Part shown: piece by piece, positions 31,104 through 36,719 of the stretch | How the letters are laid out: the number at the start of each line of letters is the position of its first letter | Numbering within the stretch: position 1 is the stretch's first letter | NCBI RefSeq assembly: GCF_003052265.1 | Contig: NZ_QANS01000002.1 | Span: 1 to 64,000, forward strand | DNA length: 64,000 nucleotides | Origin: Stenotrophobium rhamnosiphilum | Lineage (GTDB): Bacteria; Pseudomonadota; Gammaproteobacteria; Nevskiales; Nevskiaceae | Reading direction: 5' to 3' | Notes under the pieces: generated by a model | What the model saw: only the letters and a program-made list of their open reading frames with translations | Database searches by the model: none | Told to the model about the DNA's origin: nothing | Made by a program: the position numbers and the translations under genes

Positions 31104-31544
31104 ATGAACAACCCAACTCAAGCACATCAAATTGTTGATCTTGATTTTTTGATCAACAAACTACGCTACGCAGGACGCTCTGAAATTTCTCCAGAGCGGT
31201 TCGGACATGCTTTTGACTATGATCTTTTCGCGCTAGAGCGATTAGCGCATGTTGATCAACTCCACATTAAAGATTGGCGGATGTCTCCCCCGCTTCAAAA
31301 CTTTATGGAAAACGCGTTAAAAGTGATGGGCTCAGCCGCGCTTTTACTAACCGACATGGACGAGGCTAAAACCTGGTTCAAGCACTATCGCTTTGCGGAG
31401 TTCGGCGACAAAACTCCTGAACAGCTGGTGTCCGATGGGCAGCATGCTGTTCTATTCAAGAAATTATCTGTGAGTGCGCCAAGCAATCGTCAGAGATTTA
31501 TTGAACAGACCAATCCTCAGGCAACGGCCACAGCTCATCCGTAA
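31104..31544 (+). CDS. DUF2384 (MbcA/ParS/Xre-antitoxin C-terminal) domain protein, no toxin partner
   Basis: A 146-residue protein whose second half fits the DUF2384 fold found in Xre/MbcA/ParS antitoxins: a hydrophobic helix ALLLTDMDEAKTWF, then FGDKTPEQLVSDGQHAVLFKKL. The N-terminal half (RSEISPERFGHAFDYDLFALERLAHV) could hold a helix-turn-helix-like segment. These proteins usually pair with a RES or related toxin. Neither neighbour is one: PhoD is upstream and a DUF155 gene converges downstream. It may be an orphan antitoxin or a regulator. The start is preceded by GGGGAG. Confidence 0.75.
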   Translation: MNNPTQAHQIVDLDFLINKLRYAGRSEISPERFGHAFDYDLFALERLAHVDQLHIKDWRMSPPLQNFMENALKVMGSAALLLTDMDEAKTWFKHYRFAEFGDKTPEQLVSDGQHAVLFKKLSVSAPSNRQRFIEQTNPQATATAHP

Positions 31545-31552
31545 ACCTTAGA

Positions 31553-31584
31553 GTTCTGGCTTAGTAACGAATTAAAGCCAGAAC
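31553..31584. terminator. Hairpin between converging genes
   Basis: GTTCTGGCTT (31553-31562) and AAGCCAGAAC (31575-31584) form a perfect 10-bp stem. It overlaps the stop codon and last codons of the DUF155 gene. T-runs are absent, so termination in both directions is likely but not certain. Confidence 0.5.
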
Positions 31585-32688
31585 AATCTCAACGGCGATC
31601 AGAACAACGATCGTGATCTCCAGCAGTTGAGCGCGAGTGGCTGACGATTCGTCATAGAGCGCGGTATAGGTATCGCGAACGATAGAGAGCTTTCGATCAA
31701 CCGCGCTGCTCACATTTGGCACACGAAACAGCTCAATAGCCGCGCTGTAGATTCGCGCCAGATACACATCTTCAGTCACCTGCAGCGCGTTATCGACCTT
31801 CTCGGTAAGCTCTGTCACCTCGGCAACCAAGGTGTATAGCCGTCTGGCCAAACTCGCAAAACGCCCAGGCGCAGCGAGATAAGCGGCACGGCGAGTTTCC
31901 TCGACGAGGTCGTACATTCTCGGCAGTTCATCGTCCAACAATTCGTCGTAATAGCGCATTTCCAGCAGCTGCGCGTTGGCTACTTCGAGAATATCTGCAA
32001 CGTCTGAATCTCCGCGCGGTTCATAGATCAGCGCTCGATCCCAGGTTAATACGACAAGATCATCTTCATAATATGAGAACTTGTGGCGCATCAAATCACG
32101 TCGTGCGCCTTCAGACAGTGGGCGTTTGTCGCCTGAGAGCAGTGGAACCAGATCAATTCGATTCAGCAGTTCTGTCGCCGTAATCGGCTCATTCCACTGA
32201 TGCACAACCGCCAGAACATAATCTTCTTGCAGCTTGGACTGACTGGGCTTGAGCAACGCTGGCATTAGCATTTTGACCAGTGGATCAAGAATGTTGGCCC
32301 ATAAGTCTGTGCTCGACGAATAACCAATGGCCTGATCGATGCCTTCCAGCTTTCTGGAATATTCAGTCCACTCACAGTCTGTGACTGCGGTGCGAACTGA
32401 AATGCAAATCACCCCAAAGTCGTACAGGCGAGCGGTGACCGTCGCCATTTCGAAACCTTGCTGCGAAGGCACCTGAACAGCATCCAGCGTTAGAACGACC
32501 GGCGGCACACCAAATGAAATGGCTTTAACTGGCGCCGCGCTCAATCGACGACGACTGCTAGAGGTTGGCGAGCGCAACGACCACAGCGCTTCCGCTTTTT
32601 CCAGATCAATGGCGTAGGCCACATCGAATAAACGCTGCGCAATAATCGATCCGGAGCAAACAACGAGTTCAGTTTTTTGTTCGGTCAT
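31561..32688 (-). CDS. RMD1/DUF155 (YagE-like) family protein
   Basis: A 375-residue protein of the RMD1/YagE family, conserved from bacteria to fungal mitochondria, with no firm biochemical role. Seen are the strand-rich N-terminal half (VTARLYDFGVICISVR), the helical signature LEVANAQLLEMRYYDELLDDELPRM, and a single C-terminal membrane helix (LLEITIVVLIAVEIVLALI). It is probably an inner-membrane protein facing the cytoplasm. ATG at 32688 with AAGG six bases upstream is preferred to a TTG at 32712. Confidence 0.8.
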   Translation of the reverse strand: MTEQKTELVVCSGSIIAQRLFDVAYAIDLEKAEALWSLRSPTSSSRRRLSAAPVKAISFGVPPVVLTLDAVQVPSQQGFEMATVTARLYDFGVICISVRTAVTDCEWTEYSRKLEGIDQAIGYSSSTDLWANILDPLVKMLMPALLKPSQSKLQEDYVLAVVHQWNEPITATELLNRIDLVPLLSGDKRPLSEGARRDLMRHKFSYYEDDLVVLTWDRALIYEPRGDSDVADILEVANAQLLEMRYYDELLDDELPRMYDLVEETRRAAYLAAPGRFASLARRLYTLVAEVTELTEKVDNALQVTEDVYLARIYSAAIELFRVPNVSSAVDRKLSIVRDTYTALYDESSATRAQLLEITIVVLIAVEIVLALIRY

Positions 32689-33035
32689 GCGGGGCCTTAA
32701 GTGTTGTAACAAAGTTAAGGCGCGAACAAATACTCACGGCAAGCTTGTACATTTCTAAGCGAAATGTCGCCTGTAACATGAGCAATACTGCCAGTCGAAT
32801 GTGACAGTGGCAATGTCATCGGTGAAAGTTTGTTCAAACTCGTGAACCGTACTGATTCAATTTAAGTTCTTGGCACTTATGCACAAGTTTAGAACAACGA
32901 TACGCAGTGTCTCTGTGAATTTCTTGTGTCGAAAATGCGACGGTCTGACTGAGGGAATGAATAAAAAAGAGCCAGAGCAATTATTCCGCTCCAGCTCTTA
33001 TTCACGACTTAATGAAGCCGATAGTCTGTGCCAGC
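32689..33035. other. Intergenic region upstream of the DUF155 gene
   Basis: No convincing gene is seen in these 347 bases. They hold the terminator of the AhpD-like gene at 32963 and the promoter of the DUF155 gene. A TGTGACA at 32800 resembles half of an ECF41 promoter but lacks the partner CGTC. Confidence 0.5.
32963..32999 (-). terminator. Rho-independent terminator after the AhpD-like gene
   Basis: On the minus strand AAGAGCTGGAGC and GCTCTGGCTCTT form a 12-base stem with a small internal mismatch, followed by TTTTTTAT. It is 37 bases past the stop at 33036. Confidence 0.8.
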
Positions 33036-33539
33036 TTAGTTAAGACCAGCTTTGTCCAAACCAAAAGCCTTGTCGTAAATGCCCGGCGTGGTGCGAAACG
33101 CGACATTGAGGCGATTCCAGGCATTGATCGTAGCAACGCGGAAAGTCAGCGTTGAGAGTTCCTTGTCGTTGAACTGCGCGCTGACCTCAGCATAGAGCTC
33201 ATCAGTGACACCGTTTGGGGCGATGCGAGTCAGTGCATCGGTCCATGCGAACGCTGCGCGCTCCTTCGCGGTAAACAATGGTGACTCACGCCAGATGGCG
33301 ACGTGGTGCAAGCGCAGCTCGCGCTCGCCATGCAGCTTGGCTTCTTTAACATGCATGTCGACGCAGAAAGCGCAGCCGTTCAACTGTGAAGCGAGGATAT
33401 CCACCAATAGAGACAGCCCACGGTCAATGTGGCCGCTGTTGGCGATGCCCATGCCGATGTCGACAAGCTTCTTCATCAGTTCGGGCGACTGTTGCTGATA
33501 GTTCAAACGAGATGGGGCGTTGCTGTTAGTCATGTTCAA
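33036..33539 (-). CDS. AhpD-like carboxymuconolactone decarboxylase family protein (ECF41 target)
   Basis: A 167-residue member of the CMD/AhpD superfamily. The redox motif CAFCVDMHVKEA has the CxxC-x3-H form of AhpD-like peroxidase reductants. The fold is all-helical and the protein is probably cytoplasmic. Genes of this type are the standard neighbours of ECF41 sigma factors. The one here has an exact ECF41-type promoter in front (33606-33632) and the sigma gene directly upstream, so it is very likely that sigma factor's regulon member. An oxidative-stress role is family-based inference. Confidence 0.9.
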   Translation of the reverse strand: MNMTNSNAPSRLNYQQQSPELMKKLVDIGMGIANSGHIDRGLSLLVDILASQLNGCAFCVDMHVKEAKLHGERELRLHHVAIWRESPLFTAKERAAFAWTDALTRIAPNGVTDELYAEVSAQFNDKELSTLTFRVATINAWNRLNVAFRTTPGIYDKAFGLDKAGLN

Positions 33540-33605
33540 TTTCCATTAGCGAATCGTAAGGGGGCGATACTCATGTGACGCATTGCATTGGATCGTCATG
33601 GTTAA

Positions 33606-33632
33606 GACGATCCAGCCCCGCGCTTTGTGACA
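33606..33632 (-). promoter_or_regulatory. ECF41 sigma promoter of the AhpD-like gene
   Basis: On the minus strand TGTCACA (33632-33626) and CGTC (33609-33606) are separated by exactly 16 bases, the published ECF41 consensus. The -10 lies 67 bases before the ATG at 33539. Confidence 0.85.
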
Positions 33633-33652
33633 TCGATCGTGGAAAGATTTTG

Positions 33653-34585
33653 TTAGCGACCGAGTGAGGCCAATACGCCTTGCAGTTTGTCGGGATTGCG
33701 CTGGATGTAGAGCCCCGCGATTCGGCCAGATTCAGTCGCCGAGAACGCCATGGCGATGGTCTGCACCAACTTGCCAGTTGCGTCATCGACAATCAGACAG
33801 CCTGGCATGCCATTCACGCGTGCAGGCTCCATGCGCCAAGCGCTGCTGGCGGGCAGCTTGCAGAAACCAATGAACGTTTTGGCGACGACCAAGCCGCCGT
33901 GCAGCGGACGAGATATTGCAGTCGCCTTGCCGCCGCCGTCCGCCAGCATCACCGCGTCTTCGGTCAGCACTTTGGCTAGTGCATCTACGTCAAAATTTTT
34001 GACCGCTTCGCTAAAAGCGCTAAATAGACGCTCACGCTCTTCTTCTTGCACTTCTTGGCGCGCGTAGTCCGCTTTTACGTGGTTACGTGCGCGACTCGCG
34101 AGCTGACGACAGGCATCTGGACTCTTATCCAGTCGGCGTGCGACTTCGCCAAAGTCCAAATCAAATACTTCATGCAATAAAAAAGCCGCACGTTCCAAAG
34201 GCGAAAGACGCTCCAGCGCGAGCATGAATGCCACTGATACATCCTGTGCAAACTCTGCCTGCGATTCCGGATCAGGCGCCCAGTCCGCATCATCATTCAA
34301 CAGCGGCTCTGGCAACCACACACCGAAGTACTGCTCACGCTTCACCGCAGCCGAGCCTAATAAGTCCAGACAGAGATTGGTCACCATGCGCGAGAGATAC
34401 GCGCCGGCATGCTCCACCGTGCTTTCATCCACCTTGGCCCAACGCAGCCAAGCCTCCTGCACGATGTCTTCCGCCTCAGCCCGCGAGCCGAGCATGCGGT
34501 AAGCCAGCGCACGCAAGCTGCTCGCATGATCGCGGTCATAGCGCTGGGCGCGTTCAGAAAGGGTCATCACGTTTGCTGGAGTCAT
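33653..34585 (-). CDS. ECF41-group RNA polymerase sigma factor with SnoaL-like C-terminal domain
   Basis: Extracytoplasmic-function sigma factor of 310 residues: sigma region 2 (YRMLGSRAEAEDIVQEAWLR), region 4 (ERLSPLERAAFLLHEVFD with a helix-turn-helix) and a fused NTF2/SnoaL-like domain of about 120 residues. The ECF41 hallmarks DGGGK and NPDKL are present in that domain, which in studied members replaces an anti-sigma factor and tunes activity. ATG at 34585 is chosen. An in-frame ATG at 34684 would place the autoregulatory promoter (34619-34645) inside the coding region. The exact promoter in front implies positive autoregulation. Confidence 0.95.
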   Translation of the reverse strand: MTPANVMTLSERAQRYDRDHASSLRALAYRMLGSRAEAEDIVQEAWLRWAKVDESTVEHAGAYLSRMVTNLCLDLLGSAAVKREQYFGVWLPEPLLNDDADWAPDPESQAEFAQDVSVAFMLALERLSPLERAAFLLHEVFDLDFGEVARRLDKSPDACRQLASRARNHVKADYARQEVQEEERERLFSAFSEAVKNFDVDALAKVLTEDAVMLADGGGKATAISRPLHGGLVVAKTFIGFCKLPASSAWRMEPARVNGMPGCLIVDDATGKLVQTIAMAFSATESGRIAGLYIQRNPDKLQGVLASLGR

Positions 34586-34618
34586 TCGGGGGCCTAAGTG
34601 GATCACATACCCGACATA

Positions 34619-34645
34619 GACGAAATAGCTCGCCCAAATGTGACA
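34619..34645 (-). promoter_or_regulatory. ECF41 sigma autoregulatory promoter
   Basis: On the minus strand TGTCACA (34645-34639) and CGTC (34622-34619) are separated by exactly 16 bases, identical to the arrangement before the AhpD-like gene. The -10 lies 34 bases before the sigma gene ATG. Confidence 0.85.
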
Positions 34646-34712
34646 TGCCAACGAAATAAGGGGCGAGGCAATGATCGAAATCATCGCCCCGCCCCTTCAT
34701 TTCACACCATGC

Positions 34713-35546
34713 CTAGCCGTAAAGCTTGCGGCGGTTATCCAGCGCTGCGCGCATGCCTTGCTCTTTGACGAGTTTGAAGAAAGCGATGTACGCCGGGCTT
34801 TGGTGAAAGATCGCATCAAGCTCCGCACCGCTTTGCCACGATGCGAACATGCCCATGTTTTCGTAAAAGCGATTGGTTGCGCTCTTAAGAATGGCCAGAT
34901 GGTTTGATGGCGTTTTGGCAACATCTAACGCCAATTCGCGAGTCTGCTGATCGAGCGCTTCGCGTGGTGAAACTTGATTGACCAAGCCCAATCTTTCGGC
35001 TTCGACAGCGCCAATGAGCTTTGCGGTGTACAACAGCTCGCGCGTCTTACGCATGCCGATCAGCATTGGCCACATGAATACCGTGGGCGGAATACCAAGA
35101 TCGCGACCAGCAGGATGACCGAATTGTGCGTCTTCGCCAGCAACCACCATGTCGCAGATCGCTAATAGCTCGCCGCCACCCGATAAACACAGGCCTTGAA
35201 CCTGCGCGATGATCGGCTTTGGAAACTTCCACAGCTGAACCCAATGATCGACCAGACCGAGGATGTCCTGACGATCACGATCAAGATCGACCTTGCCGTC
35301 GTAGTTAGCTGGGTACTGGCTGATCAGCCATTCGGATTCGTTAAGGTCATAGCCGACGGTGAAAGCTTTGCCACTAGCTTTGATCACGACCACTGAAACT
35401 TCTGGGTCGTAGGCCACTTCTGCAAACAGCGCACGCAATTCGGCCAACAACGTGGCGGATAGCGCGTTGAGTTTTTCGGGTCGATTCAGCGTGACCGTCA
35501 GAATTTTATCGGCGCGCTCTGTCAGCAGCGTTTTATAAGTCGTCAT
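34713..35546 (-). CDS. Enoyl-CoA hydratase/isomerase (crotonase) family protein
   Basis: Crotonase-fold protein of 277 residues. Oxyanion segments are seen at KAFTVGYDLNE and LSGGGELLAICDM. The first catalytic Glu (as in GGGxEL) is kept in SGGGELLA. The second, usually in a PE-x2-LG pattern, is absent: the stretch reads GHPAGRDLGIPP. It may therefore be an isomerase, hydrolase or other crotonase rather than a standard hydratase. It lies 3 bases after the acyl-CoA dehydrogenase gene, so the pair is an operon acting on one pathway. Confidence 0.88.
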   Translation of the reverse strand: MTTYKTLLTERADKILTVTLNRPEKLNALSATLLAELRALFAEVAYDPEVSVVVIKASGKAFTVGYDLNESEWLISQYPANYDGKVDLDRDRQDILGLVDHWVQLWKFPKPIIAQVQGLCLSGGGELLAICDMVVAGEDAQFGHPAGRDLGIPPTVFMWPMLIGMRKTRELLYTAKLIGAVEAERLGLVNQVSPREALDQQTRELALDVAKTPSNHLAILKSATNRFYENMGMFASWQSGAELDAIFHQSPAYIAFFKLVKEQGMRAALDNRRKLYG

Positions 35547-35549
35547 TTT

Positions 35550-36719
35550 TTAGTGCCGGTCGAAGAAGCTTTGGTAGTTGCTCTTGAGCAAATCGCGTCC
35601 GATGATCAGCTTCATCACTTCTGACGAACCTGCTGCAATACGGTTGATGCGTGCCTCGGTGAACAAGCGACTGATCGGATACTCATCCATGTAGCCAGCG
35701 CCACCGTGCAACTGAAGGCACTCGTCAACAACGCGACCCTGTAGCTCACTGGAAACCAGCTTGGCTTTCGCTGCCTTATTGCTATTGAGCCTGCCAGCGT
35801 TGTGTTCAACAACGCAGTGATCAAGATAAAGTTGAACAACGTCGAGTTCAGCTTCTAACGCAGCGAGCTTGAACTGCGTGTTTTGCAGATCAGCAAGACG
35901 TTTTCCGAATAGCTCACGCTGCATCACGAAATCGCGGGTTTCTTCAAATGCTTTCCAAGCGCCAGCAAGATTCTGCGCAGTTGAAACCAAGCGCTCTTCA
36001 GCAAGACATTCCGTCAGATAGCGGAAACCTTCTCCGACTACGCCCAGCAAATTCTCTTTTGGCACGCGTACGTCGCTGAAGAACAGCTCGGCAGTGTCCT
36101 GCGCCTGCATGCCGATCTTCTTTAGCTTGCGACCACGCGTGAAACCCGCCATGCCGCGCTCGACAATGAACAAGCTGATCTGATGGGAGCGTCCGGAAGC
36201 ATCGCCGGTTTTGGCGGCGACAACCACCAAGTCGGCATTGATGCCGTTGGAGATATAAGTCTTGCTGCCGTTCAGCAGAAAGTGATCGCCTTGATCGACT
36301 GCATTGGTTCGCATGCCTGCCAAATCGCTACCGGCCTGCGGCTCGGTCATTGCGATGGCGAGAATCGCTTCGCCGCTTGCGCAGCGTGGCAGCCAACGCA
36401 TTTTTTGTTCTTCGGTGGCGAATCGGTCGATATACCCACCGGCTACGCGCGAATGCAGCGTGGCGTACCAGTCGGAGGTCATGGTGCGTGCAGATTCTTC
36501 GATGATGATCTGGCTGTAGCGGAAATCACGCTCGCCAGAACCACCATGGCGCTCGTCTGGCCAGATCATTAAATAGCCTTGCTCACCAGCGCGACGGAAT
36601 ACTTCCCGATCAACGACGCCGACTTCACGCCAGGCATCCATATGCGGCGCTACTTCATTTTCGAGGAAGGTACGAAACGCTGAACGGAACTCGCGTTGTT
36701 CCGCTGTAAATTCACGCAT
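35550..36719 (-). CDS. Acyl-CoA dehydrogenase
   Basis: FAD-dependent acyl-CoA dehydrogenase of 389 residues. Signatures are LAIAMTEPQAGSDLAG, the base region CLAEERLVS with Glu placed as in isovaleryl/long-chain enzymes, and QLHGGAGYMDEYPISRLF with AAGSSEVMK at the C-terminus. It is paralogous to the enzyme at 11318. It is the first gene of a two-gene operon with the crotonase, forming alpha,beta-unsaturated acyl-CoA for it. The substrate chain type is not decided by the sequence. Confidence 0.93.
   Translation of the reverse strand: MREFTAEQREFRSAFRTFLENEVAPHMDAWREVGVVDREVFRRAGEQGYLMIWPDERHGGSGERDFRYSQIIIEESARTMTSDWYATLHSRVAGGYIDRFATEEQKMRWLPRCASGEAILAIAMTEPQAGSDLAGMRTNAVDQGDHFLLNGSKTYISNGINADLVVVAAKTGDASGRSHQISLFIVERGMAGFTRGRKLKKIGMQAQDTAELFFSDVRVPKENLLGVVGEGFRYLTECLAEERLVSTAQNLAGAWKAFEETRDFVMQRELFGKRLADLQNTQFKLAALEAELDVVQLYLDHCVVEHNAGRLNSNKAAKAKLVSSELQGRVVDECLQLHGGAGYMDEYPISRLFTEARINRIAAGSSEVMKLIIGRDLLKSNYQSFFDRH

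Follow-up and report, generated by a model that had tools for sequence, protein, structure and literature searches.

Does the sigma factor gene in this stretch of DNA, together with the CMD/AhpD-like gene beside it, form a small module that is switched on from two promoters of its own, and how far beyond these two genes does its control extend? We scanned the window, by which we mean the whole stretch of 64,000 nucleotides, for the ECF41 promoter TGTCACA-N16-CGTC and compared the counts with those in 100 dinucleotide shuffles.

Two exact promoter copies in the window

Exact matches numbered two, both on the minus strand, one ahead of the sigma gene (P1) and one ahead of its CMD/AhpD-like neighbour (P2), which is where the original prediction had placed them. 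Its reading by eye that the window holds no third copy agrees with this count. The shuffles contained 0.05 exact matches on average and none of the 100 reached two. When up to two mismatches were allowed, 17 matches were found against 18.6 expected and 71 of the 100 shuffles reached 17; this count is at the level of the shuffles, and thus only the exact pair exceeds chance. P2 lies in the gap between the two genes, 20 bases past the sigma stop codon, and P1 lies within the longest reading of the sigma frame, ahead of its conserved part. The features of the locus are collected in Table 1.

Table 1. Features of the ECF41 locus, in positions of the window
Feature	Position	Strand	Description
CMD/AhpD-like protein	33036..33533	(-)	165 aa, ATG 33533
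Weak 5-bp stem TGACG-N13-CGTCA, predicted CMD leader	33576..33598	(-)	about where the relatives' stronger stem-loop sits
P2, ECF41 promoter of the CMD gene, TGTCACA-N16-CGTC	33606..33632	(-)	exact match, TGTCACAAAGCGCGGGGCTGGATCGTC
ECF41 sigma factor	33653..34585	(-)	310 aa from ATG 34585, or 304 aa from ATG 34567
P1, ECF41 promoter of the sigma gene, TGTCACA-N16-CGTC	34619..34645	(-)	exact match, TGTCACATTTGGGCGAGCTATTTCGTC
Crotonase gene	34713-35546	same as sigma gene	upstream of the sigma gene
Acyl-CoA dehydrogenase gene	35550-36719	same as sigma gene	upstream of the sigma gene

The sigma factor gene and its start

The sigma protein scored 317.6 bits with the NCBIfam model NF007214 (SigJ, cut-off 271) and 315 with TIGR02957 (SigX4), just below the cut-off of 323.25, and it was matched by both Pfam Sigma70_r2 and Sigma70_r4_2. 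WLPEP, the motif of the linker between sigma2 and sigma4, stands at residue 90; DGGGK at residue 216 and NPDKL at residue 297 are what we take to be conserved motif strings of the ECF41 C-terminal extension. Of the 98 sigma rows fetched, which include the window's own gene three times, 86 have DGGG[KR] and 96 have NP[DE]KL. SigJ of Mycobacterium tuberculosis (5xe7) was aligned by phmmer with residues 23-303 at E=9.8e-40, most of the extension being covered, although the extension is less similar than sigma2-sigma4. No Pfam SnoaL model was reported for the extension at E<=0.001, and the assignment of a SnoaL-like domain is therefore based on the SigJ alignment and the motifs. The locus thus has sigma2 and sigma4, WLPEP, a C-terminal extension (about 100 residues in ECF41), the promoter and the CMD neighbour that characterize ECF41. 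The family models, the linker motif, the solved SigJ and the conservation in relatives described below all bear out the proposed assignment to ECF41, the pairing with a CMD gene and the presence of both promoters.

The longest reading of the sigma frame extends from 33653 to 34684 on the minus strand. The original prediction had moved the start from 34684 to 34585 on account of the promoter. The first half of this revision stands, since a start at 34684 is ruled out if P1 is used; the choice of 34585 over 34567 is not decided by the promoter, and the relatives point the other way. The reading from ATG 34585 begins MTPANVMTLSERA and that from ATG 34567 begins MTLSERA. Judged by eye, the nearest relatives (L040-L046, L072) start with MTT or MKT..ERA, or nearly so, in alignment with ATG 34567, and in the Roseateles-type rows a Met precedes this position by a few residues. 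From these alignments ATG 34567 appears to fit the relatives better, and 34585 is possible. In this way, reading a promoter consensus off the raw sequence can put right a gene start that is misplaced by about 100 bases.

The CMD gene and the flanking genes

The CMD protein, whose longest frame reading is 33036-33539, scored 64.3 bits with Pfam CMD and 45.9 bits with TIGR00778 (ahpD_dom). It carries NGCAFCVDMH, an instance of CxxCxxxH, which is the AhpD-type active site, and its closest solved relatives are Atu0492 (2gmy) and PA0269 (2o4d). No obvious anti-sigma gene lies beside the sigma gene, the neighbours being the CMD, crotonase and acyl-CoA dehydrogenase genes. Downstream of the CMD gene, on the minus strand, there is an ORF of 383 aa (31561-32712); neither Pfam nor NCBIfam matched this ORF or that at 31104-31544 at E<=0.001.

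Genome-wide extent of the regulon

The 3.96-Mb genome contains three exact copies of TGTCACA-N16-CGTC, and none of the reversed-pattern control. The third copy (G000:C15:568283-568309, L003:1501-1527) starts at the second base of the start codon of a LysR-type ORF (L003:1500-2399; named by eye) and lies wholly within its first ten codons; it is probably a chance match because it falls inside the coding start. A relaxed motif (TGTCACN, a spacer of 15-18 and CGTC, base 7 of the -35 element being left free) gave 20 matches genome-wide against 49 for its reversed control. We rejected a wider regulon in this genome, the relaxed motif being rarer than the control and the sole extra exact site lying inside the LysR-type start; a regulon of the two genes originally proposed is all that is visible in the scan. 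When the sigma protein was compared with its own genome, three matches were obtained at E<=0.001, of which the other two are 27% and 30% identical (E ~1e-8) and cover sigma2-sigma4 only. One ECF41 gene was found in the genome.

Conservation of the promoters in relatives

A scan of contigs yielded 361 stretches that encode a relative, and the best 80, representing 79 distinct loci, were kept. The close set, drawn from these best 80 of 361, consists of the window and 33 loci at >=60% identity (L040-L069, L071-L073), in all 34 rows. Both promoters are exact in 22 rows of this set, P1 only in 2, P2 only in 5 and neither in 5; exact P1 is thus present in 24/34 rows and exact P2 in 27/34, window included, and at least one of the two is absent in 12/34. 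In 29 of the 34 rows, again among the best 80 of 361, a CMD ORF ends no more than 1,200 bases past the sigma stop. Four of the five rows lacking exact promoters (L053, L059, L065 and L071, of Roseateles, Rubrivivax and Mitsuaria) also lack a CMD ORF within this distance and form one clade (100/99), so that promoters and CMD ORF have been lost as a pair; in the fifth, L064, near-matches stand in place of P1 and P2. Among the more distant loci of the best 80 of 361, those with a CMD gene more often have it ahead of the sigma gene.

We consider it very probable that the locus is a one-component ECF41 module, in which a sigma factor controlled by its own extension fires P1, ahead of its own gene, and P2, ahead of the CMD/AhpD-like gene. 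The reading that best survives beside this one, unlikely as we judge it, is that only P2 matters, some other promoter maintaining a low, steady level of the sigma factor and P1 being weak or vestigial. CMD (COE) genes were the only ECF41 targets detectable in the parts of Wecke et al. (PMC3426412) drawn on here, and the support found there for a sigma-gene promoter is therefore in silico only; exact P2 without exact P1 also occurs in 5/34 rows of the close set (best 80 of 361). Against this, the 24 of 34 rows with exact P1 (best 80 of 361) hold it at a near-constant 992-1022 bases ahead of the sigma stop. That the pair belongs to a larger unit including the upstream crotonase and acyl-CoA dehydrogenase genes is highly improbable: these genes are on the same strand and 127 bases separate the crotonase stop from ATG 34585, but no exact ECF41 promoter lies ahead of them and P1 is situated inside that gap. 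It is scarcely credible that the two matches are due to chance and the genes transcribed by a housekeeping sigma factor, for although, by a hand estimate from base composition, 11 fixed bases should be matched by chance about twice in 3.96 Mb, and the third copy looks like such a match, no shuffle had two matches in the window, both sites lie at the sole ECF41 gene found and its CMD neighbour, and both promoters are kept in 22/34 rows, window included (best 80 of 361).

A proposed one-component module compared with known ECF41 systems

In the proposed one-component module, the fused SnoaL-like C-terminal extension would hold the sigma factor in check, by analogy with published systems. A signal, probably a small molecule bound by the extension, would change the shape of the sigma factor, which with RNA polymerase could then fire two promoters of identical core sequence. 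P1 would feed the sigma factor's own gene and create positive feedback, while P2, between the two genes, would drive the CMD/AhpD-like enzyme, both promoters presumably being used in the organism. The position of P2 inside the pair would allow the enzyme to outnumber the sigma factor. The gene identities, both exact promoters and their conservation in relatives were observed here; that ECF41 factors recognise this motif is known from the literature, and autoregulation we infer, on what we regard as sound grounds.

Such an extension has been described as inhibitory through contact with the linker, activation being a conformational change (PMC8999054, in the part drawn on here). In the consulted parts of PMC3426412, 5'RACE located the start sites of two CMD genes, both of which have TGTCACA as the -35 element, the -10 element being CGTC or TGTT; promoters fused to lacZ responded to ECF41 overexpression, and the consensus TGTCACA-N16-CGTC was drawn from 285 sequences. 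The sigma factors of that study, Ecf41Bli/YdfG of Bacillus licheniformis and Ecf41Rsp/RSP_0606 of Rhodobacter sphaeroides, have in common with the window's protein sigma2-sigma4, the C-terminal extension and the WLPEP linker. The ECF41 group as presented there further shares with the window the lack of a recognised anti-sigma gene, the CMD neighbour and TGTCACA-N16-CGTC. The order >ECF> >COE> was found in 53/373 loci, with 14 sigma and 24 COE promoters and 20% having both; the window's arrangement, with this order and the motif at both genes, is thus a minority one in the group (same parts of PMC3426412). RpoE9-SMb20029 of Sinorhizobium meliloti, according to the excerpt of PMC6180224 used, likewise comprises an ECF41 factor, a CMD gene with CxxC and a start site that has the ECF41 -35/-10 motif, and the CMD gene is the single target of RpoE9; unlike in the window, the CMD gene comes first and one start site lies upstream of the pair.

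The locus is an ordinary, well-formed member of the described ECF41 family, whose promoter and CMD pairing were already known. As a clean single-copy pair with both promoters exact, it is useful for testing positive feedback and the ECF41 signal. Dubey et al. in 2020 reportedly named an ECF41 factor as controlling motility in Azospirillum, and a CMD-only regulon may therefore not be universal among ECF41. The term stress module, used in the original prediction, finds no support: in the hands of Wecke et al., neither H2O2, cumene hydroperoxide, t-butyl hydroperoxide nor paraquat made a significant difference, and no reproducible ECF41 phenotype emerged, either with peroxides or from a phenotype array comprising 960 assays (PMC3426412, as far as its text was available to us).

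A candidate stem-loop in CMD leaders

We folded the 45 bases that follow CGTC and compared them with shuffles. The P2 leaders of the close set (27 with exact and 2 with near-match promoters, window included; best 80 of 361) had a mean z of -2.09, with 21/29 below -1. For the P1 leaders (24 exact and 2 near-match; best 80 of 361), the mean z was -0.27 and 4/26 were below -1. The 5' foot of the best stem is at CGTC+11, a few bases past the predicted transcription start, in 10/29 rows (best 80 of 361). The position of the foot has a standard deviation of 5.6 measured from CGTC against 28.5 measured from the sigma stop, the first figure being limited by the confinement of the search to 50 leader bases.

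Covariation was evaluated in a tree-defined clade of 13 rows (alignment A3). There, 82.7% of the cells are paired against 75.7% in shuffles (0/500), five pairs are changed on both sides against 2.0 (3/500) and the covariation score is 0.248 against 0.124 (0/500), while slid controls are at most 48% paired. An alignment of 15 rows (A1), whose leaders were chosen partly by eye for the apical hairpin, gave stronger covariation figures, which are biased upward; the tree-defined A3 is the fairer test and still exceeds the shuffles, less strongly. Among 17 loci from further genomes, 7 repeat known leaders, 5 are without P2 and 5 rows are new; two of the latter (L126 and L138) are one site, hence four distinct new leader sites. 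Three of the four have z below -1 (L134, L136, L140), the L140 leader having the same 11-30 stem, and the fourth, with a non-exact promoter, has z +0.5. The exact P2 of the second sigma gene of L138 provides a fifth new site, with a leader z of -3.33. In the genome concerned (G738:C1:261675-264290), two ECF41 genes that point in the same direction are separated by about 0.8 kb; they share 77% and 61% identity with the window's gene, and the second is followed by this P2 and a CMD ORF.

We tentatively propose, with more doubt than conviction, that in the branch with the window's tandem >ECF> >COE> order the CMD message starts with a stem-loop that covaries in at least one sub-clade, has its foot near CGTC+11 independently of the distance to the sigma stop, and would affect the CMD leader in cis, either stabilising the 5' end or insulating against transcription that continues from P1. 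If real, this stem-loop would be a trait of one ECF41 branch and an extra layer of control. Several broader or different readings were set aside. A single consensus fold for all 29 P2 leaders gave no structure from the poorly aligned A2, an argument against a single element common to all of them. Nor does the hairpin hold as a feature of ECF41 in general at the other 62 loci, where leaders of exact promoters with spacers of 15-17, on both strands and ahead of sigma or other genes, have a mean z of -0.56 with 16/49 below -1. A Rho-independent terminator for the sigma gene is not favoured, most leaders having no U run after the stem by eye (L068 has one), and such a stem would stop P2 transcripts too. 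A compensatory change preserving the stem in the window itself was dropped, alignment A4 being ambiguous there.

The window's own leader fold is not significant (z +0.21 and +0.10), and its minimum-energy fold differs from the 5-bp stem of Table 1. A 9-bp inverted repeat at 33589-33614 (TGGATCGTC, an 8-base loop, GACGATCCA) lies over the -10 element of P2, reaching from -8 to +17 relative to the final base of CGTC; a hairpin could arise from it only in RNA that reads through from P1. At the gathering threshold, Rfam had no match in six loci, the window's junction (L001) included. Our literature search found no description of an ECF41 leader hairpin, which is no proof that it is unreported, and the words hairpin, stem and terminator are absent from Wecke et al. 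2012 (PMC3426412) in the text consulted.

Origin of the sigma factor gene

In the window's family, ECF41 was detected at E<=1e-40 in 16/58 genomes, the window's own included, the others being 44-54% identical; the single same-genus genome had none at this threshold. Across a phylum-wide sample of 398 genomes, the only one with a match at E<=1e-110 was the window's own, and no further close relative was found. In the tree, the gene belongs to a clade of 36 rows (100/100), including three of the window's own gene. The clade is composed mostly of Burkholderiales and Rhodocyclales, with a few others (Rudaea, a Gammaproteobacteria MAG and a Pedobacter MAG), and contains 0/16 rows from other genomes of the window's family. 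That the sigma gene groups with mostly betaproteobacterial sequences and not with the other ECF41 genes of its family suggests horizontal acquisition. Loss elsewhere in the family is a possible explanation of the distribution, but acquisition is simpler. With a GC content of 0.54-0.57, the region around the module does not leave the range of its flanks (0.47-0.57). From the same clade, a contig titled Pedobacter (Bacteroidota; L048) carries an ECF41-CMD pair with both promoters, which may reflect mis-binning or transfer.
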